Below, in pieces: positions 1 through 49,886 of a stretch of DNA of 64,000 nt. This DNA comes from Pontederia crassipes (lineage: Eukaryota > Streptophyta > Magnoliopsida > Commelinales > Pontederiaceae), in contig CM060198.1 of the NCBI GenBank assembly GCA_030549335.1, forward strand, positions 50,495,353 to 50,559,352, given 5' to 3'. Within the stretch, counting starts at the first letter, position 1; each line of letters begins with the position of its first letter. The notes beneath the pieces were generated by a model. That model searched no databases. It was not told the origin of the DNA and saw nothing but the letters and a program-made list of their open reading frames with translations. A program made the position numbers and the translations under genes.

Positions 1-404
1 AACTCGTTAGAGATTAAGGGTCTGTCTGGGAAGGTTGGAAAATTAAAGAAATAGTAAAAAAACCATAGTTTCTGTTCCTCTCAGTGAAAATTAAAAGTTA
101 ATGTTTGGATGTCAAGTTTATTGGGCTTAAAACTATGGTTTACAGGTTTACAATCGAAAATGGTGTAAAAAAATTAGCAGGTCAGAGCTCCGTATTGTTT
201 CCTATTGGCGGCGGCTTGTGCAAGTGGGAAGAAGAATATGAGTGCCAAAATAAAAAAGTTGCAAACAATATGGATCCAAACACTTTTGACTGAAAATTTT
301 CTTGAATTATTTTAACCTGTGGTATCACACTTTTTGAAATGTAGGATACCATAAAATTTTACAATCCAGAGATTAAAATATGTTTTTGCCAAACAGGACC
401 TAAG

Positions 405-640
405 AAGGCATGTACTGCTTGTGCTTCTGTGATGCATCAGAAGAGGACAACAACCATTTGTTTTCTGAGTGCCCAGTGGCAAGATTAGCATGGCTGAGAT
501 CTAGGTGCACATGGATTGATACTCGGTCACCCACAAGCTCTTGGAGGACCTTCAGATCTAGAGGTCATGATCAACAATGGAGAATTTATGACTCAAGGTA
601 ACAAAGAGGGATTCATTTTGCTTAACTTATGGTCCAACTG
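405..640 (+). mobile_element. LINE 3' fragment (zf-RVT zinc-finger remnant)
   Basis: The plus strand encodes a short stretch with the spacing of the zf-RVT domain found at the C-terminus of plant LINE ORF2 proteins: a Cys-x-Cys/Cys cluster, then the acidic run EEDNNHLFSECPVARLAW. No reverse transcriptase is attached, so this is a truncated remnant in an intron or spacer. It is opposite in strand to the larger LINE at 2.1-5.9 kb. The family assignment rests only on the domain pattern. Confidence 0.5.
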
Positions 641-1077
641 GGTACAACATAATGGGTGCATTTTCAGGAGGGAAAAACGTTAATGTTGAAAATATTGTGG
701 CGTTAGCAAATAGCTTGGTGAGAGAATGGACAATGAGTTTATTGTAGTTTCCCTCAACATGTAGCTTTTTCTCAGTAAAAAATGGATGTTTACACATCAA
801 AACCATCCTGCATCTTCTCAAAAGAAAGTTCTAGAATCATGAGACAACTTTAGATGTCTTATAATTGTGTACTTTCCAAAGTACTCAATTATAAGAAAAT
901 TTTCAGGTGAACTCGAATATCAAAGTATAGTTTATTTTTAAGTTAAAAATATCAAATAAATCATACAAATGCATCGTGCATGAGATATCAAAACTGATAC
1001 TATGCTCTTAGTAACTAGAAGTTGTTTGACATGGGTAATGAAATCTGTGAAATGATATATTAACAGCATAGGCATCA

Positions 1078-1119
1078 ATGAAACCGAAATTTGCCCCTCA
1101 AAAAAAATGAAACCAAAAT
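1078..1119 (+). repeat. Micro-insertion A: 16-nt C/T-oligo(A) insert with 13-bp direct repeats
   Basis: The insert TTGCCCCTCAAAAAAA (1091-1106) is flanked by ATGAAACCGAAAT and ATGAAACCAAAAT, which match at 12 of 13 positions. The layout is that of a target-site duplication around a retroposon, but with almost no body. It is one of a set described in the findings. Confidence 0.7.
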
Positions 1120-1177
1120 AATCTGTATAAATAGTTAAACGAAATGGCATACATACAGCACGCCCTCTCATTCAAAG

Positions 1178-1219
1178 GTAACAAGATTATTTTTTTGAGA
1201 AGAAATGTAACAAGATTAT
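1178..1219 (-). repeat. Micro-insertion B: 16-nt insert with perfect 13-bp direct repeats
   Basis: Two copies of GTAACAAGATTAT (1178-1190 and 1207-1219) are identical. Between them lies a 16-nt insert reading ATTTCTTCTCAAAAAA on the minus strand: a pyrimidine head with a CTC then an A6 tail. Confidence 0.75.
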
Positions 1220-1468
1220 CATTAAATATTCCTGGAAAAAGTTAGCATGCAAAATGCTTATAGAGGTATCACAAGTTTTAAAATCAATTTGATGTTTCTA
1301 GTTACGGCGAGTGACAGAATAAGTCAAACGGTGATACATAAAATAAGCTAGGATATTAAGAGAACTGTGATAGTTGGTTTTACAATAACATGTAAATAAG
1401 AAACTAGATCAGGAGTTTTTTAGGCTACATCTGGATTATTACTAGCATATAAATACATAATACCTCAC

Positions 1469-4400
1469 CTCATAGACGAACACATTCACAGACTCATTGT
1501 CTGGAACAGAACCGCGTCCTTTACATGGGATCTAATTCAAAATAATATCAGTTTGTGATAGAACTAATGTTGAAAAATAATTAATTCCATAAAGAGATCA
1601 ATTTAACAAAAATGGCTTCTCACCTTCACATGTTTAACCCCATATTTTGATAGTTCTGATGGTGAATAGTAACGAGTAGTATTTGTCAAGTCAATTATTA
1701 ATCCAAGCTGCAAAAAAAACCATGAAAATCAAAAGATAATACATAAAACTCACGCAACTAAAGAATAACTAATTATACAATAGTTTTTTTTTTTGAAACG
1801 GAATTATACAATAGTTCATTAAGTAAGTTCAAATTAAGCAATCAGGAACACCCTTATGATGTCCAAACTGAATCAAAAGGTTGGTGCACGGCAAGTTCAT
1901 CCAGATTATATGTTCATCCATAAAACAATTATGGTACATTGTAAGTGGACTTTAAACCTTAGTCAGGCTATAAGAAAACATGTTGCACAAAACTTGGTAA
2001 ATGATCCTGCAGGATCATTTTAAAGGTTCTCAATGACAGATAAGATTTCCAGTACATATGAGAAAGAAAGAAACTCCTGTATTCATAAATTTTTATTTTC
2101 TGAGAAGGAAAAGGACGACCATTGTCATCCACCTATATATATATATATATATATATATCACTGAAAGAAAACATCATATACATATGGAACGCTCTCCAGT
2201 GGGGTGCAACAAAAAGGGAAGAGAACAAGTGCTAATGAAAACCCCACTCCCGAAGAAGACAAAATATGAGATGTACAATACTGTCCACGTGACATCTCTC
2301 CCATAAAAAATAGCATGGTTGCGTTGAAGCCAGATGGACCAGACACCAGCCAAAAGGGTCGCTAATGGAACTCAGTCTCTGTCTGTCGAGCCCCCTCATA
2401 CCAAAAGTGCGCATCTGCCAGAGGAACACTGCCCATAATGCTCGTCCGAGACCAAACCTCATGAAACACCTGACATCCGAAGAATAAATGAGTAACATCC
2501 TCCTCCATCTCCCCACACAAAACACAAGAAGTATCCGCGTGGGAAGCCCACCTTTGTTTGTAAACTCGAGTGAGGATCCACTCACGTCACAGAAGCCAAG
2601 CAAAGATCTGCTTGTCATCCTTTTGCTCCTTAAAAAAAGAAGCCAAGCAAAGATCTTGACTTTCAGCGGCACCCGAGACTGCCATATGAGTATGCAGTCT
2701 ACACCAAGGTCATCTGAATCTGCGACAGCCGGAAGAAAGCGAAGATAGAGACTGCGCGCTAAGAAAAAATCTGAGACCATATCCAACCATCTGTCCATGT
2801 CGGATCCAGACGAAGGGGGCGATGTAAAGTGCTAATAATAGCGCTGATCAGATAGAGGAGAGCCCAAGAGCCAATACCCAGGCCACCCCTCTCGGACCAG
2901 CATTCAGCCACACTTAGCCACATATGCATCAGGATGTGCCCCTAAGGCCCGCAACCGGAGGAAAGAGTCTGCGAGCGGGCCCCCGGGTAACAAAGGGCCA
3001 CCAGGTAACAAGTCGTGCTGCCAAAATAAAAAACCATGCCCGGAGCCAAGTGATGGGATCATGAAAGGCCCCACTCGAGGGAATAACGCCGCCATCCCCC
3101 TCCAAAAAGAAGAAGCCCCGTGGGGTAGGATAGGCCTGGAAACCCACGAGAGATTCCGACCGTAGTATGTGAAGAAAACCTCTCTCCATAAGCTGTCCTC
3201 GGGCCCCATAATTCGTCCTACCCACCGGGCACTCCTTAATTCATCCTACCCACCGGGCAAGGAGTGCCCAATTGGCGTTGCGGAGGTCCCAAACGCCCAA
3301 TCCAACCTATGAGGTGGGCCTACATATGTTGTGCCGGGCAACAAGGTGAACCCGGCGGGCAGAGCTACATCCATGGCAAAAGAACTTGCTCCTTAAGTGA
3401 TAGTACCTAGGCTGGCATATGAAGCATTGACATGAAGTAGATCGAAAGTGATGATAGAACCAATCGTGGCAAAACAAGACGTCGCCCGCTAGATAACAGC
3501 TGAGAGCTCCAACCTTGAAGACGATGCTTCAGCCACTCGATGACCGGAATCCACCTCCGAGAGCTAATATGTCGGTCCGAAAAAGGGAGGCCCAAATAAG
3601 TGGTGGGAAGGCGCCTACAGGGGTGTGTAACTCTGCCCCGCAGTGCAAAGCATCCCTCTGCCACCGTGCCAAACGAAATGAAAGATGATTTTACATGGTT
3701 GATCTCGAGACCCAAAGTCGCGCCGAAGACCTCCACCAAAATGGCCACCCGTCTTGCCTCAAGCTCTAATCCCTCAACAAAAAAAACAATGTCATCCGCG
3801 TATTGCAACACAGGCACCAGCCCGTCAGCGAAGCCGCTGAAGAGGCCGGCCCGGCATGCCTCCCGATTGCATCTGGGGAGGTTGTCGACAGCCAATGGAG
3901 AGCATGGGCACAAGGGGACATCCCTGATGGACGCCCCGCTAAGGCTGCACACAACCCCCCGCCATCGACAACCAAGACCAAGAAGGAAGCAATAATGATG
4001 CACCGCTTCATCCAAGCAATCTAAGCCTCTAATTTGCAAGGAGTACTAGAGGAAGGACTATGAGAGAGAATCATAAGCCTTGGAGAAATCTACCTTCCAA
4101 AGAAAGGCACGGCGACTGCTCCGCCTCCATTGCACAGGATCTCAGAGGCCACGGTGTAGCTGTCAATGATGGATCGACCGTGGATGAAGGCCGACAGACC
4201 AGGATGGATGAGGTCGTACAACACCTCCAAGAGCCGATTAGCTAATACTCGAGCCACGAAAAGACGTTGGACAAGGTGTCGCCATGCTCTACCAACTTCG
4301 TTGTCGGGAGATCGAACTGAGAATCAATGAAGTCTTTTAAGTCAGCTCCCCTTGTCACTTGGTGGGGCGATCATCCATGTCCATGTGACATTGAAGAAGT

Positions 4401-7400
4401 CACCCCCGTTCAGCCATCGACAGGCAAGGAGATGGAGGTGGGCAGCCGAAAGCTCCTCCCACATATCCGCTCGAAGGGACTCCGAACAAGGGTCGTAGAC
4501 ACAAGAGAAGAGGTAAGATGATCCGTTCATGCCACGTCTCAAATGGGTCGTCATCGAAAAACGGGCCATCCAAGAATCCACCAAGAGTAAATTGATCGGC
4601 CTGCCAGCCAATGATACAGCCCTCGGAATGCCCCACTGAGCTGAGAGAGATGTGCTGAGATAACCGAGCCCCGCCTACTCCCACATGTGTGTGTTATACT
4701 CCACAAGTTTGGTTTCCTACAGGAAGACCACATCGGAGGGGCACTGCTGGCAATCCTTCCTGGATGTGTGAGCTAATGGAGAAGGTTGAGTTAGCATGGG
4801 AGAGGCTTCTTGACGGCGTGGATTTAGCATCTGGGCTGATGTGGTAGTGTGAGGCGGCTGAGGGAGGGATTGGGTTGGATTCTGGGTGGCGGTGGGGGTG
4901 GGGGTGGAGGTGACAGATGGAATGGGGTCATGTTTTTTAATTAAAGGTGACCCATACAATACCCCACGTGCCTCTCCCACATGCGGGTCAGAGAGCGGTG
5001 GCAAAGCGGGCATCTAGGACGATGCAGCGGAGCGGCCGGCGACGAGACCCACGAACCTGCCACCCTGGCTCACCAGAGTTGAAGGAGGAAGGAGTTATGC
5101 TGAAGCAACCTCAACGGAGACGGCTGACGGATCTGGTGAGCCCATTGCCAGCAGGAGAGACAGTGGGTTTCTGAAGGTGCGTGCGACAGTCAGGACGACA
5201 TCGAGCCCCCGATGTCGATGACGGCTCTGTCCGCCGGTGCAGGCACCGCGCTGTCCTCCTCCCTCCAGGGGCGCCTGCCACAGACACAGCACTTCGGCAA
5301 AACAGGGGACGGCAAGGCGAGAAGAGCTTCCCGCTGCTGAGTGAGCCCAGGACAAGAAGCCAGAGAGCCGACGATACGCAGCTCAGGTGGAAAGGCGGTG
5401 AGGCATCCATGCTCGTCACGACCACCGTGCGAAGGACCACCAGGTCTGGAAAACCGTCTGGAGGTTCTCCAGTGGATTCGCCAATGAGACAATAGCGAAG
5501 GAAATCCATTGGCCGCAACCAGGGAACGGTGACAGTTGACGCTGGCACACACCTCTCCTCCCGGTCAGCAACAGGTGCAGCCACAGCCTGCGCGGCTGGT
5601 CTCCTCCGGCGAGAGTGAGGACAGAGAGCCCTTCGATGGCCTTCCTTCCCGCAGTCGAGGCAGCAGAGCAGAGCCGAGCAGGAACGTGCGAAGTAGCCTT
5701 CTCCCAGACACTGGAAACAGTGAGTGGCTGGCCGGCGGCAGGATTTGACAAGGAGATGGCCGTTCAGCCATTGCCCAGCTGTTGAAGCCGTGGTCCCATC
5801 CTAGTCGTGAGATGGCGTGCTGCAGCTGCTATTTGGCACCACCAGCAGGGGCTGCCAGAGACGGAGCGGATGTCATAGCCGGCAGGGGTTGCCAGAGGCG
5901 GAGGGCATCAATTGTGAGAAGCTATAATTTGCAAACTGCTTTAGACAATATTCTAATTACGTCACAAACTGTATCCATAAAGTAAATAATATTATGCAAC
6001 CTCTCACTATCCTTCATCTTCTCGGGAATGAATGAAGTAAAGAATGTGAACAAGAAAAACATCAACGAGAGAAAAGATGAAAACTTACACACAATGCTCC
6101 CTCTCAAAAAAAAAACTTACACATAATGTTGGATACTATTTATAAAATCCGCGTGTAATCAGATATTTCTGAAGTAAAAATATCAGAAAATGCAAAAAAA
6201 AAACTTACATCTCGTCCGAATTTCTTCTGTTTATTGACTGCTTGTGTCGGAGAGTATCTTTTACCAGGAGGTATCTGATCATTATATGTTTCATCTAGAG
6301 GAACTTTTGACGGGATGATGTTACTAATGCACTGACCATGTGCTGGACAATCCAACCATCCTGACATAAGAATACACATTTTAATTTGTATTATAAGTTC
6401 TCAAAATTTTGTACTATAAGTACAACATGACAGGAATAAAAAATATTGTACCTGTGGTTGGTGGCGGAACAACAAAAGTAGAATACAATGGCACAATTTG
6501 CAGGGATAAGATATGAAGAATGCAACAATAGATAATTTACAAGTGCAATCCACAAGTTACAAACTACAAAAGATATATATTTCATTTACCCAATTATTTC
6601 AGTTAATAGGAGAAATGACCACCAAAAGACAAATTAATAAATCATTTGATGGTTTAATTTATTTCTTTGCTTTCTTTGGTAACATTTATCCTTTATTAAC
6701 ATAGCTGAACAAAGTAACACATGCAAATGTTCTCTAACATGTATATCTTTTACCATCCAGTAAGATGGCCTTTAAGTCAATATCGGAAATAAAAAAATAA
6801 TGTGAGACGCATTTGTTGCTCCACCATAACATATTAACAATCTCTGAGACCATGAGCCCATGTTTGTTTTCACATGTCTTCCAGACATAAACATTTTCTT
6901 ACCTGAGTGGTGACTTGCTGGTCCAGACGAGGGTATCTTCAGATAAATTGTGTGTTGTGCACTGTTTGCTACAACCTAATACTTGTGAGACAGGACCAAA
7001 CACACCAGTGCTTCTAGTATTCATCAATTAGATTTGTTTAATTTTCCTTTTATTTTAAGTTTTTAATAACAAAATTTTAAAAGATGGTATAAATATCTTC
7101 ATTTATTGCAGAATATTCATCCTAAGTAACAGAAACTAAAAACGAATTCTTTCCACAAACCTCATCCTTTTCCCTGTGAGAAACAAAATATCTAAAGAAT
7201 CCTCTAAATAGCATTTTGTTGACCAAACTTCACTTTCATACGATAAACTGAATAAAAGGCTAATAAAATATTTTCTACAAGAATATGCATAAAGAAAAAT
7301 ATGAATTTCAATACTACAGCACCTGATAAAATAGCAAAACTTTACCTTGTGGGAGTTCTTTAACCCTTCCATGGTGTCTTTTATTCTGAGGCAAGTACTC

Positions 7401-7898
7401 GTTCTTCACAGGTTGGAAATGCTGACTTGGTCCTTCAGATGGATTTTCTCTTTTCAGCCTCTGACGTCTTTCTTCACGTTCCTGTCATTAGCAAAAACAG
7501 ATGACAAAACAATCTGACGATAAGTCATTAGTAGTGAACAGTTCCTAGCAAATCAATGACTATAAATAGTTAGTTAAGTTGCACGTATGTTAACTTTGCA
7601 ATACACATACGATGAGAAAAAATAAGCAAGGTAGCAGAAATAATCAATAATGTACATATGTTCTCCATATCTCCAGAAAATAAATTTTCCACATGTGAGC
7701 TCTTGAATTGCTAATGAATTTTTAAAGAGAGAGAAGAGAATGGTTGCCACATGGCTGCCCAAGGGAATTAATAGTAGGTACCCGACGCATTGTTGCCACG
7801 GCAGACTCCACAGGTTCTTCATGTAAAATTTCACCGCCATAGTGCGCATCATAATGTTGTCCCTCATCTTCGGGCAAAGGTGAGGCATTCAAATCCAT
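1469..7898 (-). CDS. mRNA-capping enzyme, N-terminal part (runs off the left edge)
   Basis: This is the 5' portion of a plant mRNA-capping enzyme, the bifunctional nuclear protein with an N-terminal RNA 5'-triphosphatase of the cysteine-phosphatase fold and a C-terminal guanylyltransferase. Five coding exons join in frame with GT-AG borders: 7782-7898, 7346-7481, 6209-6360, 1624-1707 and 1469-1531, giving residues 1-184. Recognisable pieces are the start MDLNASPLPEDEG, the basic run REREERRQRLKRE, GWLDCPAHGQ followed by IIPSKVPLDETYND and PPGKRYSP, then LGLIIDLTNTTRYYSP, and IPCKGRGSVPDNESV. All are characteristic of plant capping enzymes. The catalytic HCxxxxxR loop and the guanylyltransferase Lys motif should lie left of base 1. 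I chose the start by conservation; an in-frame ATG four codons upstream is possible. The third coding intron is 4.5 kb long and holds a LINE in the same orientation. Confidence 0.88.
1771..1816 (-). repeat. Micro-insertion C: 16-nt insert with perfect 15-bp direct repeats
   Basis: AATTATACAATAGTT occurs at 1771-1785 and at 1802-1816 without mismatch. The insert between them reads CCGTTTCAAAAAAAAA on the minus strand. It sits in intron 3 of the capping-enzyme gene, about 60 bases from exon 4. Confidence 0.75.
2133..5915 (-). mobile_element. LINE (L1-like non-LTR retrotransposon), degenerate, in a capping-enzyme intron
   Basis: On the minus strand, from high to low coordinate, I see a Pro/Thr-rich ORF1-like segment (about 5.9-4.75 kb). 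Next comes an AP-endonuclease start (DVVFLQETKL near 4.72 kb, continuing to about 4.34 kb) and reverse-transcriptase block NRLLEVLYDLIHPG with FIHGRSIIDS near 4.2 kb. The YADD catalytic motif (LQYADDIVFF) is near 3.8 kb, followed by TYLGLPFS and a zf-RVT domain (CVLCGEMEEDVTHLFFGC) near 2.5 kb. The 3' end is a TA tract at 2133-2158. The stretch between endonuclease and reverse transcriptase is too short, so an internal deletion is likely, and the frames are interrupted. The 5' boundary is uncertain and I found no target duplication. It lies in the same orientation as the host gene. Confidence 0.85.
2591..2656 (+). repeat. Micro-insertion D inside the LINE: 28-nt insert with perfect 19-bp direct repeats
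   Basis: The 19-mer AGAAGCCAAGCAAAGATCT occurs at 2591-2609 and 2638-2656. The 28-nt insert between the copies ends in TTTTGCTCCTTAAAAAA, a pyrimidine-rich body with an oligo(A) tail. It duplicates part of the LINE coding region (the KIFAWLL motif on the minus strand), so it entered after the LINE had inserted, or while the LINE was degenerating. Confidence 0.7.
6080..6128 (+). repeat. Micro-insertion E: 15-nt insert with 17-bp direct repeats
   Basis: AAAACTTACACACAATG (6080-6096) and AAAACTTACATAATG-type copy (6112-6128) match at 16 of 17 positions. The insert is CTCCCTCTCAAAAAA. It lies 80 bases from capping-enzyme exon 3, on the intron side. Confidence 0.72.
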
Positions 7899-8625
7899 GG
7901 AGAGGATCATTCAACATCCACTTTGAACCAACAGCATTTACAAAAGCTTCAGGTGACAGGTTAAGTCAAGGAAATAAGAGAAATAAGAATAGAACGGAAA
8001 TTATTGGTGACAAAAAAGGTAGCATTAAAGAACATTGCTGAAGTCGTTTATACTTTGCTTATTAGGCGTTTATGATTCAAAGAATAAAACTTCCAAGTTG
8101 TTAAAACAAACTTCCAAATTTCTGCTGACAAGTTAACCTTCTAAAGCTATCGGAAGAGAATGAAACCCAAGGACTTGGAAACCTCTGCCAAGATGCAAAC
8201 GACCCTAGTTTAGTTTCCACTATCTTTAATCACTGCGCTCGAACAACAATAATTGAAATCGTTCATTTTGTAACATTCAAAATTTAACAAATATGAAGCA
8301 TCAGCAGGGTAACTGATTCCTATCGAACTCCTCTGCGAACAGAAACATGATAATATCAAAATATATAACAAAGATTGTTGCAAAGAAACGATCGAGCTTT
8401 TTCAAGAAAGAAGCTAACTCGGTCATCGCACTGAGCTCGCCTCTCCTACTAATTCTTGAAATTGCACATAAATGCAGACATACAACCATCTAGAATCACC
8501 GAAAGATAGAACCAGGCAACCGACAAAAGCGGAGAGAAAAAAGAAGGAGAACGAAAAAAAAAGACAAACAGAGAGCAGAGGCAACAGTAGCAAGAAGAAA
8601 AATTTAAAACCCTAGGATGACTCAC

Positions 8626-8946
8626 GGGTCCGCAACCCCCACGGCACGAGTTGACACGAGGTTACACAGAAGCTCCGGTGCGCCGAGGTGCTGTCCTCCC
8701 CTGCCGGAGGAATGGGAAAACAGAAGGAAGGGACACCACTCGACGCGGGCGCGCCGAAGGTGCGACGTCCACGGCTATTCGACACGGCCGAAAGAGGAGG
8801 AACTCCGAAGTGGCGCCTAGTAGATGGTGACGACAGAAATGCAAGGAGACGAGTAGCCTCCGGCGAACCAAGCGCCGGAGAGCGGAGAGACGGCGGGTGA
8901 GACGATCGGAAATGGTGTCGGAGAACGGAGAAGAAATAGGCTCCAA
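8626..8946 (-). other. Probable 5'-untranslated exon of the capping-enzyme gene
   Basis: A GC-rich block lies upstream of the capping-enzyme start on the minus strand. It ends in a strong donor (CCC|GTGAGT at 8624-8626), followed by a pyrimidine-rich intron start containing the CCTAGGGTTT motif. A non-coding leader exon spliced to an acceptor just upstream of the ATG at 7898 would explain it. The acceptor is unresolved (candidates near 7921 and 7945). The open frames across it look like composition artefacts. Confidence 0.45.
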
Positions 8947-9489
8947 AAAAGATTAGTTGAAAACCATGTCTTTATTAACAATTTTGCACTAAGGCCCCTT
9001 CCCTTTTGATATTTTTACAAAACTTTTTTTGTTATTTTCGATTGCGACTCGAAAATTAAAATTTTGCATTGAACTAATTGGAACAATTTTTTTAGTATAT
9101 TGAATTGAAACACAAAATTATATTATTTAAAATAAGTATCGAAGAATATGTACATATTTTGACCTGTTTTGAAGCTGATCACGTAGTGAGAATCATTTAC
9201 GCAACTTTATAAAATGCGATCTATAAATTATCATTTTGGTGTTTTATTTTATCACGTAAGGATAAATTGTGCAACACTTTTAGCGCTCCTAAAATGATAG
9301 TATTTAGATATCCAGAGATGCTTTTTTTTCCTACCTTTTTTTTCCTACCTTTTTATCAATTGCTGCAAAAGTTTATATGCAGGCTTTAGTATTTAGATTT
9401 CAAATTTGAAATTTGGAGTTTATAGATCCATTGTATTATTTGTTCTGCAAAAAAATGTACTTAAATTAGTCGAATAATAATGTTTTGAG
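8947..9489. other. AT-rich spacer upstream of the capping-enzyme gene
   Basis: No gene is seen. The stretch is AT-rich, with a short direct repeat of TTTTTTTTCCTACC near 9322-9350. It probably carries the capping-enzyme promoter at its low-coordinate end, but I recognise no clear TATA box. Confidence 0.4.
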
Positions 9490-10655
9490 TAGGGGTGGCA
9501 ATATTCTCCACCCCCGCGGGGCCCATCTTCGAGGAATTTTTTCCCCGCGGGGCGGGGATGGGGGCCAAACTGCCCATGCCCCCTCTTTCGGGGATCGGGG
9601 TGGGGGTAGTTTCCCCGCCCCGTCGGGGCTCCGATTCTTCGATAATGCATAACCGCAGCCCTCCTCTCTCTCTCTTCTTCGTCCGCGCAGTTGTCCCCTC
9701 CTCTCTCTCTCTTCCTCTCTTCTTCGTCCGCGCAGTTGTCCCCTCCTCTCTCTCTCTCACACCCGTCGGCTCTCTCTCACCCCCCTCCGCCGGTCTCTTG
9801 ACCCGTCGCCGCTCTCGACCGTTGTCGCTCTCGCCTCCACCGCCGTGCTCTCGCCCGCCGCCGCCGTGCTCTCGCCCGCGTCGTCGTGCCCTCGCCCGCC
9901 GCGGCCGTGCTCTCGCCCGCCGCGGCCGCTCTCTCGCCCCGCCTCCACCGCGCTCTTGCCCGTCGTCGTGCTCTCTCGCCTCTTTTCGCCGGCCATCAAA
10001 GAAGAGATCGATCGCATTCGAGATCAGCTGCATCTGAGATCCTCCTCTCTCTCTCTCTTCTTCTTCGTCCGCCTCCGAGATCGGCTGCATCCGACGCGGA
10101 TCCGGCCAGATCCGCACAGATCTGCCGCATCCGATATCCCCCTCCTCTCTCTCTCTTCTTCTTCTTCGTCCGCCTCCGAGATCGGCTGCATTCGACGCGG
10201 ATACGGCCAAATCCGCACGGATTTGCCGCTCTTTCACACCCGTCGGCTCTCTCTCACCCCCTCCGCCGGTCTCTTGACCCGCCGCTGCTCTCGACCGCCA
10301 CTGCTCTCGCCCCCACCGTCGTGCTCTCGCCCGCCGCCGCCGTGCCCTCGCCCGTCGCGGCCGTGCTCTCGCCCGTCGCGGCCGCTCTCTCGCCCCGCCT
10401 CCATCGTGCTCTTGTCCGCCGCCGTGCTCTCTCGCCCCTTTTCGCCACCGTTCTCTCGCCCCCGCCGCCGCTCTCGTCCTCCTCTGCGGGGATTCGGATT
10501 CCCCGCAGGGATTCGGGGCCCCGCGGGGATCGGGGCGGGAGTTAAAATTTCCTCCGAATCGGGGATTCGGGGCGGGGTCGGGGGCAGAGGCGGGTTGTTG
10601 GGGTCGGGGCGGGGGTGGTGTCCCCCGCCCTGAACAGCGGCGGTTGTCATCCCTA
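9490..10655. mobile_element. Non-autonomous hAT element 1, with a GC-rich, G-run-rich interior
   Basis: The element begins TAGGGGTGGCAA and ends with the imperfect inverse of this (TAGGGATGACAA on the minus strand). It is flanked by perfect 8-bp duplications GTTTTGAG (9482-9489 and 10656-10663), the hallmark of hAT insertions. The 1,166-bp interior has no transposase. It is very GC-rich, with G-runs of the GGGGCGGGG type near both ends. It also holds a large direct repeat (about 9760 onward against about 10237 onward) and a smaller one of about 50 bp repeated 103 bp apart (10078 and 10179). Long open frames here on both strands are Arg/Ser/Pro/Gly-rich and are composition artefacts. Confidence 0.85.
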
Positions 10656-14340: not shown

Positions 14341-14404
14341 CATGTATATGGTGCCTCCGATATATATATACATGTATATGGTGCCTCCGATATGTATATA
14401 CATG
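14341..14404. repeat. Two-copy 32-bp tandem repeat
   Basis: The unit containing ATGTATATGGTGCCTCCGAT is repeated twice head to tail with minor changes. It lies between the unresolved gene and MSRB. It is a simple local duplication with no evident function. Confidence 0.7.
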
Positions 14405-14425
14405 GATGACAATTAAAAAATTGGT

Positions 14426-14465
14426 AATCATCATTTTCCCTCTAAAAAAATAATGTATCCATTTT
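14426..14465 (+). repeat. Micro-insertion I (imperfect)
   Basis: The insert CCTCTAAAAAAA (14439-14450) lies between AATCATCATTTTC and AATGTATCCATTTTC, which align only with a small gap. The insert sequence is nearly the same as that of micro-insertion F, which is why I list it. The flanks alone would not support it. Confidence 0.35.
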
Positions 14466-42776: not shown

Positions 42777-45700
42777 ATGGGCGCCGGCAGCAGGTTTTGC
42801 AGGGGGGGCACCTCCTTCCGGCCGTTGTCGTCCTCCGGCGCATGCGGCGCTTCCTCCTCCTCCCACTCATCCGAACCCCTGCAGCCGCCCACGGAGACGG
42901 CCTCCACTGCCGTGACTGACACGGTGAACGGCTCCCATCACTTCAAGATCACCGGCTACTCCCTCCTCAAGGGCATGGGCGTCGGCAAGTACGCCGCCTC
43001 CGAGACGTTCACGGTGGGCGGCTACGACTGGGCCATCTACTTCTATCCCGACGGCAAGAGCCCCGAGGACGGGGCGGCCTACGTCTCGCTCTTCGTCGCC
43101 CTCGCCAGCGAGGGCACCGACGTCCGTGCGCTCTTTGAGCTGACCCTACTTGATCAGAGCGGCAAGGAGCATCATAAGGTGCACAGTCACTTTGGCAGGG
43201 TGCTCGATGGAGGGCCGTACACGCTCAAGTACCGCGGGAGCATGTGGTGAGTCGCTGTGAATGAGATATATGAGAGACTAACGATTCTTGTTTTTATGAT
43301 TGTTGGAAAGTACTTACGACTCTTTGCTTTCAATTAACCTGTTGATGACTATCTTTTCTTGTGCTTATCAGGAATAGATATTCAGGTGTGTTCGGCAAGA
43401 TAAACAATGTCTTCGGATAGTTAGTAATTAAGGATGAAAGAACATTTATATTTGTAGCAGTTTAAGTGCCTCAAGGATGCTTTATCTTTATTCCTTTTTA
43501 TGTTATCAACATAAAAGTGGGTGTTGGGTGACTTCGGAGACAGAGCCCGTGAAATTCCTTTTTGATATAGTTACAACTTCGTGTGTCTTGTCATATGCAT
43601 TGTGAAATCTATGCAAAATCTTGTCATCTTACAAAACTTTTTTAGCATGATTTTTTTCCATTTTTCATTCTTAACATATGTTATACATCGAAGATTTAAG
43701 TAATATCATCTTAACAAAATAGTCCATTCTGTTTACATTATACTAAAATTTCTCTTTTTATACATATTAAGTTTCTTCCTGGGTTGCCAACTTGGTCAAG
43801 TATACCATTTCTTTCCTCCTCTAAAAAAAAAGTATACCATTTCTTTCCACTCAAAGCCCAAACACTAGATTAGTTGGATGCCAGTAGCCCTGACACTGGT
43901 AGATCATGTGATTGCACACCGAAAAAGCTTTCTAAGATTTTTACTTTTAGATTTTAATAAATTAAAATAAAGTTTAATATTTGTATATGGTTTTGGCTTT
44001 AGATCGTGGACTTGAAATATTAATTAAGACACCATTTTTATTGTCTCTAATTAATATAATATATATCAACTAATTATTTTTTCGGTAATTTATGTTGAAT
44101 TATACTTATATTTATCCTTACACATGTGTAAGATATTGTCCGCTTTGAGCCTTGGCCCGCGCGATTTACCAAAAGGTGTCCTACCAAGTAAAGTCCATGG
44201 CATCATATATAACTATCATCTCTCCTGTGACTTGTGCAATGTTGAAAGATTCTTTGCCAGTCAAATCATTTTGAAGATTCTCAAGTAGAATATAGAATGT
44301 ACTGATTAAATCCTTGGTTTTAATGCACAAGGGTAGGAAAGAGAAATCCCCTTGTGATCCAATTTGCGCTCGTTGCGTACTGTATTGAAATATGAACTTG
44401 GCACAGAAGACTAGTGCCAATTAGTGTGGTATGTTCTCGTGGGTGTTACTTTTAGGATATTGCGAATTAGTAAAATAATCAACGTGTCCATCAATATTAA
44501 CATTTTTGTTTAAAACCCGGTTCTCTACATGTATTATGTCAGGAAATAAATTGATCAACCATGGACATTCAATGAGTTCTGATTTTGTGATATAGAGGAA
44601 TTGATTCAGTTGTAAATAGTTGGCTGTTTAATTTTGGTTAGGAGTCTTATCACACAGGATCATGGATTTAGTTTGTTGACTATCTTTGCTGTTTACTTTT
44701 GGTTAGGAGTCTTATCACACAAGATAATGGATTTAGTTTTATTGCACTATCTTCCCTTTTCTGTGACAAGTTATTCTGTGTGAACTGATAGATTTTGCTG
44801 TAGTTCTGTTGTTATTTAAACCAAAGTTTGGAACATGATTTATTTTCCATTCTAACTTGTGAATCAAATTTCTGTTAGTTCAAAGCAATATTATTTGTCA
44901 ACCACTGATATAGAAAATATGGTATTGAACATTAAGCAAGATTCCAAGCATGATTCCTACTCATACTTTTGCACCCCAAGCTTCTGAACATGTTTCTACT
45001 GTTGCCTTTATACATACGCCAGTTTCTTTGTACTTGTATTTCTTCGGTGCCCCTTTTTGTAGTAAAGCATCTAAGTAATTTCTGGTTTATAAGTTATCAC
45101 TTTTAATTTACGTCTGAATTAATGATTTATATGTGAAAGTTTCAGAGGGCATAGATGTCTTGAGGCATGGATCTTTCTCGCATCTTGTCTGTAAAGACCA
45201 TTTAACCTTAAGGGGACGGAGTAGTTATATTTAGACCAAGCATCCGTGAAAGCTATGCTAAGTTTTGTCGCACATACATGTATGGGTGGATATTCCAAGA
45301 ACTCGTGTAAATGATGCCAATGTTATTGTAGGTCTTCCAAATTATGATAAGCAGCATGGTCAAATTACTTTAGACACACTTAATAATGTTGCTGCTATCA
45401 TTTCCCATCACTTTCTCCATGTTGTTGCATCAAATACATAGATCATTCTTGCTCATGCCTGATTGAAAATCATATTATGTGATTGTGCAGGGGTTATAAA
45501 AGGTTTTACAGACGGACTGCTTTAGAGACATCAGATTATCTCAAAGATGATTGCCTGTTGGTCAATTGTACTGTTGGTGTTGTTAGGTCACACACTGAAG
45601 GGCCCAAGATCTATTCTATACCTATTCCACCTTCTAACATATCACAACATTTTGGCCAGCTCCTCGATAATGCAAAGGGAGTAGATGTCAATTTTGAAGT

Positions 45701-47826: not shown

Positions 47827-47869
47827 AATTTCATCATATTTTCCCCCTAAAAAAAATATCATCATACTT
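47827..47869 (+). repeat. Micro-insertion G: 13-nt insert with 15-bp direct repeats, in the BPM 3' flank
   Basis: AATTTCATCATATTT (47827-47841) and AATATCATCATACTT (47855-47869) match at 13 of 15 positions around TCCCCCTAAAAAA. It starts 44 bases after the BPM stop, so it is probably in the 3'UTR. Confidence 0.55.
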
Positions 47870-49886
47870 TCATGTAAAGTTAGCAGTTACCATTGGTTGG
47901 CCCGTCATTGTATTCTTTTATATTTATGAAGTACTTAGGTTGAAATCAAATTTCACTAAGCCAAAGTTTGATCGAGTTCTAAGTTAAAATTATCTTCGAT
48001 TTTTTATGAGAGTATATAGTTTTGGTCCTTCTTTGGTAGTCAGTAAATAATTGACACCATGTCAATGCAAACGAGGGTATGAAATTGTGGAGAATTTATA
48101 GTCTAAACTTAACCTTGCTATGTAGTGAGTTGCTAAAAATGCATGGATTTTGTTAACATACTCAAACGGGGGAAAAAGCTCTAAGATTCAACTAGAACTG
48201 TGTAGCCATTCGGTTTTTGTTCAGTTGATTTGGTGTTCATTTAATTTCAAAGTTGATCTCTAACGGAGGAAAAAAATGTACATGGGTTATAGATGAAAAG
48301 AAAATACATTAAAATAAAGAAAAAGAAAATATACATGAAAAATAAGGCAATTCTTAAATCTTCAGTTACAGATGAGAAAGAAATACATGACTATCGAGAA
48401 AAGAAAATATGATAATGCAAATAATGCATACAATTATACAAAGAAAAAATAATACGAATAACGCATACAGTACAAAAAGGAAATAATGTATCTTCGACCC
48501 CACGACATATATACTCCCAATTCATAAGCGTTTGTCTTCTTTTACTTTTCTGCTGATTAGAAAAAACAATTTGTCTTCGTTCTTAGTCGCCACCAACTTT
48601 TGTGAGAGAGAGAGAGAGAGAGAGCATAGCTTTTAAGTTAAAAGTCTATTTTACCTTGTTTGAAAGAGATGCGATTTTTGGACCTACAAATACGTAAAAA
48701 ATACTCTCACTTCATGGACATTTTCCTTCCTCCTCCTGTCTATACCAACCAACTTTGTGCAAATAAAGAGAAAAAAGGAGAAAATTTTAACGTAAAAAAT
48801 GTCTATTTTACCTTTTTTGAACGAGTATTGGCCTACAATAACATTTTTTTGTTTATTTTTATGTTTTTAAGATGGTGACGCTCTTTTCCTCGTTTCGTCA
48901 CTTGCTCGGCTAAGTACCACAATGTGTAAATTAATCACTTAAAAAATGGTGTGCATGACACCCCTTACAGGTTGTTAAATGCTTCTCTGTCATTCTTGTA
49001 ATGATTCACACAATGCCATAATGATTTGGATATTATTAATTATCCTCTCAGCTTTGGTTCCCTAACATTATTTAACACACCTAGAGCACCTCGTTCTACA
49101 TTTTAATTTAACAATTGTAGTTCACAATTAAATTAATTATATAATTCATAAATGGTAATTTGATAGTAAAAAAAATATTATTTAAGGGTAAATAAATCGT
49201 GGAATTATTTGTAGATATTAAAACAAATTTGATCAAGATGATGGAAGCATTGAATGACTTTGCTCATGATTTCATTTACTATCTAATAATAAAATAAGTT
49301 AACATATAATTATTTTATTAATTTAATGGGAAAATGAAGTATTTTAGATCTTATTCTAGATAGAACATGCTCTGCCTAAACATTTTTAGCTAATAGAATA
49401 AAGTCCCATTGATCCATGCATCACTGAAACAAGCTGTGCCATATCGTCAGGTCACGGCGACAAACCTGATCAACAAAACGATCGAACAAAGGCACATTTT
49501 TTTTCTTCTACACAGCTCTAGGAACAGCGTAGGGTGATTACTTAGCTGTGGGGAGAGAGAGAGAGAGAGAGAGAAGGCACGCAACAGCGCCACATCTCCA
49601 GAGCAAGGGACAAAGACGCGGGTTCACGAGAGCAGAGGGGGAGGAACAATTTAGCCTTCGTAGCAGGGGAAGGTGGGGGCGCAAATGCGCATGTGAAGGA
49701 ACCTTGGACTCATATGGAAACTTTTCACAGTTGACCCTCATTAATTAACCTCCTCCAAACGCTTGATCACAAGTACCCCTCCAAATCCGCACTGCCGAGA
49801 GCTCATAGCAATCTGCAGCAGCTAGCACCGTCGTCTCCTTATCCTTTGCAAGCATCCCACCAGCTCCGAGTGAGGGTTCAGAGCTC
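47870..49886. other. Spacer between the BPM and kinase genes
   Basis: No gene is seen. GA microsatellites lie at about 48605-48625 and 49554-49575. A diverged repeat of GTCTATTTTACCTT occurs near 48641 and 48802. The last few hundred bases are likely kinase promoter and leader. Confidence 0.5.

Follow-up and report, generated by a model that had tools for sequence, protein, structure and literature searches.

Short A-tailed insertions in the Pontederia crassipes genome as probable products of LINE reverse transcription halted near a 3' hairpin

The 64,000-nucleotide stretch of the Pontederia crassipes genome analysed here (GenBank assembly GCA_030549335.1, contig CM060198.1, positions 50,495,353 to 50,559,352 of the forward strand), referred to below as the window, carries a series of very short insertions that are each enclosed by a direct repeat and end in a run of A, and that probably stem from long interspersed nuclear elements (LINEs). 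A sequence-only reading had placed five such micro-inserts in capping-enzyme introns, a putative label; Pfam gave zero matches for two short putative capping-enzyme exon fragments. The five coordinates and the proposed layout are borne out, with repeats of 14–19 bp that are exact or have one mismatch and, at all five sites, a pyrimidine-rich head with the oligo(A) on its 3' side. Site 1 (1077..1119, plus strand) consists of an insert at 1091-1105 (TTGCCCCTC followed by A) between target site duplications at 1077-1090 and 1106-1119 (14 bp, one mismatch). Site 2 (1174..1219) and site 3 (1771..1816) lie on the minus strand, confirming that inserts occur on both strands; their inserts, at 1191-1202 and 1786-1801, read in the sense direction CTTCTC plus A within 17-bp repeats with one mismatch (13 bp exact) and CCGTTTC plus A within 15-bp exact repeats, respectively, and site 3 belongs to a second, LINE-like family described below. 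Site 4 (2591..2656, plus strand; insert 2610-2637, GCTTGTCATCCTTTTGCTCCTT plus A; 19-bp exact repeats) is nested in a dead LINE, and site 5 (6080..6128, plus strand) has its insert at 6097-6111 (CTCCCTCTC plus A) within 17-bp repeats with one mismatch. The head is just 6–9 nt long at four of the five sites. An insert size of 15–28 bases, as given earlier, holds for some sites and fails at others, such as site 2 with 12 bases.

The LINE that hosts site 4 is a degenerate L1-type element on the minus strand at 2094..5940 (boundaries approximate), with matches to zf-RVT and RVT_1 (E 3.2e-6 and 27.5 bits for RVT_1, under the curated cut-off of 29.6). Across the insert the zf-RVT match shifts frame, with a weak upstream part (profile 20-42, E 0.0066) and a downstream part in a different frame (profile 44-85, E 4e-8). 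A solved-structure search with the reverse transcriptase fragment returned weak unrelated matches only. Searching the genome (1.13 Gb, 43 contigs) with the stretch hosting site 4 found paralogs, many of whose alignments are interrupted at the insert. The 3' end of the host LINE (2094..2151, minus strand) reads GGATGACAATGGTCGTCC and TTTTCCTTCTC followed by A-rich sequence and has a shortened hairpin, and a further 3' end of the same type, with hairpin, TTTTCCCTCT spacer and A-tail, lies at 14395..14452 on the plus strand. The 3' ends of the L1-type paralogs are built, with variation, as GGATGAC-AACCAAATTGGTA-GTCATCC, an 11-nt spacer TTTTCCYTCTC, and A's. The hairpin predicted for this end (-15.2 kcal/mol, z -4.61) turns up repeatedly among the 29 3' ends that we selected for alignment. 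The second, LINE-like family (loci L053 and L054 in our numbering) likewise ends in a hairpin, an 11-nt spacer (TTTCCCGTTTC) and poly(A), and has micro-inserts of its own (L055, L056). A third type of retroelement 3' end, belonging to a LINE or a short interspersed nuclear element (SINE), is seen at L007:1454-1514 and L008:1454-1514, with a GGATGAATGC hairpin, TTTATCCTCTC or TTTGCCCTCTC, and poly(A).

Direct repeats could fall around oligo(A) tracts by chance. We scanned both strands of the window for direct repeats flanking a short insert that ends in an A-run and obtained nine matches, compared with none in each of 20 Markov-4 simulated windows. In addition to the five sites, the matches comprise an insert at 43817-43829 (TCCTCT plus A; site 43798..43848, plus strand, 19-bp exact repeats), a weaker one at 47844-47854 (CCCCT plus A; site 47827..47871, plus strand, 17-bp repeats with two mismatches), and two doubtful AT-rich matches, 21007 and 21310, which were dropped from the window count. 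A stricter test on the 220 runs of at least six A in the window found five sites, whereas 200 shuffles of the downstream flanks averaged 0.125 and never exceeded 2; mismatches keep site 1 and 47844 out of this count. On a larger scale, a search for inserts of up to 3,000 nt in 290,580 bases, with homeologous copies counted twice, gave 28 inserts shorter than 30 nt and 1 in the reversed sequence. In 299,385 bases, looser settings gave 45 raw matches (40 after de-duplication) against 6 in the reversed sequence, and strict settings gave 27 clean inserts against 0. Overlapping loci L009-L013 were excluded from these latter two scans; the search up to 3,000 nt retained L011, so one 165-nt insert is counted twice there. 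The excess expected of a real class is thus present against simulated windows, shuffled flanks and reversed sequence alike. While the loosest control scan does yield its 6 matches, the shuffle test and the three empty sites described below refute chance as the explanation, and we regard it as practically negligible.

Clean inserts were defined by a head of 3–22 nt without A5 inside it, a repeat of at least 13 bp with at most one mismatch, and an A-run of at least 6. This removed 13 of the 40 de-duplicated events, including 47844 (equivalent to L048:7467), a tandem duplication at L042:1126, and L039, which was dropped for its broken A-run (CTTCTC-A7-T-A5, 18 bp exact) and appears genuine. L042:8157 and site 5 are homeologous copies of one event, which leaves 26 of the 27 clean inserts independent. 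Eighteen of them (17 independent) come from 263 kb that were not selected by tail pattern; this set is non-random, as it combines the locus studied here and its homeologous counterpart with sequence around LINE copies, so that its density of about one clean insert per 15 kb is a rough guide only. The clean duplications measure 13–23 bp with at most one mismatch (13–19 bp in 26 of 27), and the heads are 3–9 nt long in 25 of 27, the remaining two having 18 and 22 nt. Target site duplications of truncated LINEs are typically about 7–20 bp long. Micro-inserts may cluster, as two pairs lie close together: L055:1448 and 1502, about 50 bp apart with heads CTTCTC and CCGTTTC, and L003:1385 and 1498, about 110 bp apart. 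The same TGAC-A insert with a 19–23 bp repeat occurs in both L022:796-850 and L025:2301, and was probably carried along within another repeat.

Comparison with a second copy of the region shows which inserts are shared and which are absent from one copy. Contig C15 bears a colinear copy of the window, termed the homeolog, with aligned blocks that are up to 96% identical; the plant is presumably polyploid. Sites 2, 3, 5 and 47844 are common to both copies and therefore predate their split. Looking for empty sites, as had been suggested, uncovered three between the homeologs, each with a single repeat left: site 4 is represented in the homeolog by one 19-bp repeat copy with one change, the 43817 insert by a single exact repeat and, in the reverse case, the homeolog insert L048:4475 (sense CCTCCTC-A) by a single, slightly diverged repeat in the window. 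About eight further bases differ alongside this last empty site, while the other two are clean. For site 1, window positions 349-1126 are without an aligned counterpart in the homeolog. At the place of site 4 in LINE paralogs (L014-L041), 25 of 28 loci have one good repeat-like copy and three have no recognisable copy; L033, which is among the 25, shows an additional repeat-like stretch, 30 bases off and with five mismatches. One stretch in which the hairpin is retained lies at about 1161-1226 of L052, 8692 bases ahead of window position 1, where a LINE-type 3' end complete with hairpin and A-tail faces a 65-bp alignment gap in the homeolog. Elsewhere, L047 contains, within 321-9800, a tandem array that repeats about every 2.15 kb (copies of 25-bp words are spaced by 2128-2129 nt), and the alignments listed for the window include no match to this array.

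The heads indicate where many of the inserts come from. CTTCTC-A and CCTCTC-A are the last nucleotides of the L1-type LINE 3' end, and the CCGTTTC-A head of site 3 matches the 3' end found in L053 and L054. The site 4 head (GCTTGTCATCCTTTTGCTCCTT-A) matches the LINE 3' end over 18 nt plus four A's with three mismatches, and this insert extends into the hairpin arm. Heads ending in CTC or TTC make up 9 of the 18 clean inserts from sequence not selected by tail pattern, compared with 63 of 770 runs of at least six A in the same sequence (Fisher p 2.5e-6). A shared head consensus can thus be recognised, and comparison with local LINE 3' ends shows many heads to be identical to them, so that a derivation of many heads from LINE 3' ends is well supported. 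The earlier proposal that a LINE primes on the tail of some RNA can accordingly be narrowed, as that RNA appears to be in large part the LINE's own 3' end, of the L1-type or the LINE-like family. Because the CTC and GTTTC heads match the 3' ends of two families, a generic poly(A) RNA with an untemplated head was discarded as their source; it could still apply to the odd heads TACTT, TGAC and TCT.

The target sites are informative as well. In 85% of the 27 clean events the duplication opens with one or more A's, compared with 29% of random positions, a bias that fits an L1-type endonuclease, for which a consensus of TTTTT/AA has been given in the accessible text of PMC8565326. This bears on the proposal that double-strand-break repair produced a patch duplication with filler, next to which the A-run would be a coincidence. 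Such events do occur nearby: L042:1126-1192, the homeologous counterpart of window positions of about 56-80, is a 25-bp repeat with a 17-nt spacer, a duplication without a LINE-type head whose core 18 bases have a single occurrence in the window (position 63) and two in L042. Moreover, 65 of 93 direct repeats collected without regard to A, a set that includes simple and tandem repeats and spacers of up to 60 nt, have neither an A-end nor a T-start. However, the A-run of the micro-inserts sits on one fixed side, as the contrast with reversed sequence demonstrates (28 against 1, and 27 against 0 for clean inserts), LINE 3' sequence is common to many heads, and most of the repeats begin with A. 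Tandem duplication with filler, the rival named in the sequence-only reading, is therefore represented near the window by L042:1126, an event that differs from the A-tailed inserts, and as an origin of the inserts themselves break repair is very improbable. Patch-type tandem duplications are reportedly common in rice, according to work by Vaughn and Bennetzen from 2014. They resemble the sites described here in that short direct repeats are made together with an insertion; the mechanism there is break repair, and the title of that work implies no A-tailed LINE-derived insert.

An important question is whether the micro-inserts form a size class of their own or are the extreme tail of a continuous range of lengths produced by ordinary random 5' truncation, in which case the hairpin would be irrelevant. 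LINE copies of about 150–1100 nt, with repeats and the same 3' ends, are present in the same sequence, as this alternative would have it. Loci fetched by their tail junction alone constitute a length-neutral set: of eight with a CCTCTC-A8 junction, five are micro-inserts (L002-L006, L005 having a weaker repeat of 13 bp with one mismatch) and three bear the hairpin (L001, L007, L008), while the four CCGTTTC-A7 loci split into two and two. This amounts to 7 of 12 micro-inserts, 5 of 12 hairpin-bearing copies and 0 of 12 of intermediate length. The search for inserts of up to 3,000 nt found only 2 of 30–100 nt (control 3), compared with the 28 below 30 nt; longer inserts with LINE-type ends begin near 150 nt, mostly in loci chosen for LINEs, and inserts above 100 nt number 31 against 22 in the control, at least 14 of the 31 coming from the L047 tandem array.

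Genome-wide counts of progressively longer 3' suffixes, minus a reversed-pattern control, tell a similar story. They fall from 8720 for YTCTC-A7 to 2184 for CCYTCTC (7 nt), 753 for TTCCYTCTC (9 nt), 499 for TTTTCC.. (11 nt), 338 for TCCTTTTCC.. (14 nt) and 273 for GTCATCCTTTTCC.. (18 nt). The corresponding loss per base is 0.69, 0.53, 0.21, 0.13 and 0.05, which is steep within 9 nt of the A-tail and flat at the hairpin; in the second family the excess is 319, of which 136 reach the stem. The idea of a distinct class of tiny insertion hence gains support from these counts and from the small length-neutral set of 12 loci. Random truncation would not by itself lead one to expect a gap between the two classes among the tail-junction loci, a plunge within the spacer that levels off at the hairpin, or a micro mode in two families, and we consider it unlikely, though well worth keeping in mind given that two heads, one of 22 nt at site 4 and one of 18 nt at L022:2168, fall between the classes. 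That longer LINE copies were afterwards cut back to the tail by deletion is also unlikely, as such deletions would repeatedly need to end exactly at the repeat.

Taken with the heads and the duplications, these observations favour the explanation that the inserts arise by target-primed reverse transcription of LINE RNA that halts just before the 3' hairpin, to which we assign a probability of roughly 0.8. Judging from the products, the L1-type LINE machinery would nick the target, and reverse transcription of LINE RNA would be primed from this nick at the poly(A) tail; synthesis of cDNA would mostly end after the tail and 3–9 nt of body, within the 11-nt pyrimidine spacer, and second-strand nicking and fill-in would then yield the target site duplication. 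The presence of two different spacers with the same stop a few nt before the hairpin suggests a block by the hairpin or by a bound protein. The hairpin, or a LINE protein holding it, may thus stop the enzyme early in a manner akin to abortive initiation, a tightly held hairpin being both handle and obstacle. The same products would be expected if LINE RNA were cleaved or degraded just 3' of the hairpin and this short template were then copied to its end. Such a template would also account for a boundary near the hairpin, and nothing in the present data separates it from an aborted copy; however, a decay fragment protected by a hairpin would normally retain that hairpin, and we consider this route rather improbable.

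Several points weigh against the favoured explanation. The length-neutral set comprises only 12 loci, and the suffix counts also mix in mutation and tail variants (TTTATCCTCTC in L007, TTTCTCCTCTC in L001), which makes the size of their drop uncertain. The stop is not absolute, as the heads of site 4 and L022:2168 exceed the spacer. Covariation supporting the hairpin is thin, with two-sided changes at three of five predicted pairs, in one sequence each. The hairpin of the second family folds weakly (z -2.51), and this family is termed LINE-like from its 3' ends. A full L1 endonuclease site (TT/AAAA in the tail sense) would lead one to expect an excess of T on the 5' side of the duplications, and there is none (7 of 27). 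Finally, 9 of 18 heads end in neither CTC nor TTC, the TACTT, TGAC and TCT heads match neither family, and heads of 3–6 nt cannot individually be assigned to a LINE; it is because half of the 18 heads are unassignable that we do not place the probability above 0.8.

Extreme 5' truncation of LINEs is already known in kind. Like 5'-truncated L1-clade LINEs, the micro-inserts have an A-tail, the 3' sequence of a LINE and a target duplication with an A-rich start, and they differ from them in a body of just 3–9 nt in 25 of 27 clean inserts; defective truncated copies are put at 100 to 1,000 bp in the accessible part of the review by Ohshima (PMC3747384). The accessible text of that review also describes a lineage of monocot L1 elements whose 3' hairpin is conserved and whose RNA recognition is "stringent", and argues that recognition depends on the structure. 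In this lineage the hairpin stands just before the 3' end and recurs among copies, as it does here, whereas the CGAG conserved beside its stem is not seen here and the flank is TTTTCCYTCTC; no hairpin effect on length is described in that part of the review. In maize, according to the portion of PMC2774510 available, "severely truncated LINEs", which likewise consist of LINE 3' ends alone in a grass genome, were set aside during SINE annotation; the BLAST queries used there were the final 30 bases of LINE consensus sequences and would hardly detect heads of 6–9 nt. The same portion states that LINE discovery demanded 5–10 kb (L1-like) or 3–5 kb (RTE-like) and a protein motif, so that micro-inserts would escape such annotation. 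SINEs themselves offer a poor comparison, as the window inserts of 11–28 nt are too short for the A and B boxes of a Pol III-type body, although no search aimed at such boxes was made. A literature search, with most subscription journals outside its reach, returned no description of a LINE micro class of a few nucleotides with a boundary at a 3' hairpin.

A further-reaching and more tentative proposal, to which we give somewhat less than even odds, is that the 3'-terminal hairpin of plant L1-type LINEs is a checkpoint at which target-primed reverse transcription usually aborts, and that the commonest LINE product here is a scar of about 30 bp. If true, such a scar would combine an A-tail and a target duplication with 6–9 nt of spacer, and would not be a LINE copy. 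When the 17 independent clean events in the non-random 263 kb are crudely extrapolated, tens of thousands to about a hundred thousand scars are possible genome-wide, each of which would add one oligo(A) tract and a short duplication. Should this be general, the activity of plant LINEs would be undercounted, as their usual product would be too short for repeat annotation, and micro-inserts would be recorded as small indels or microsatellite seeds. The same inserts, being shared or absent between the homeologs examined here, are clean presence/absence markers. Finally, the sites are precise footprints of where LINE reverse transcription stops, making genomes usable for studying the step from initiation to elongation.

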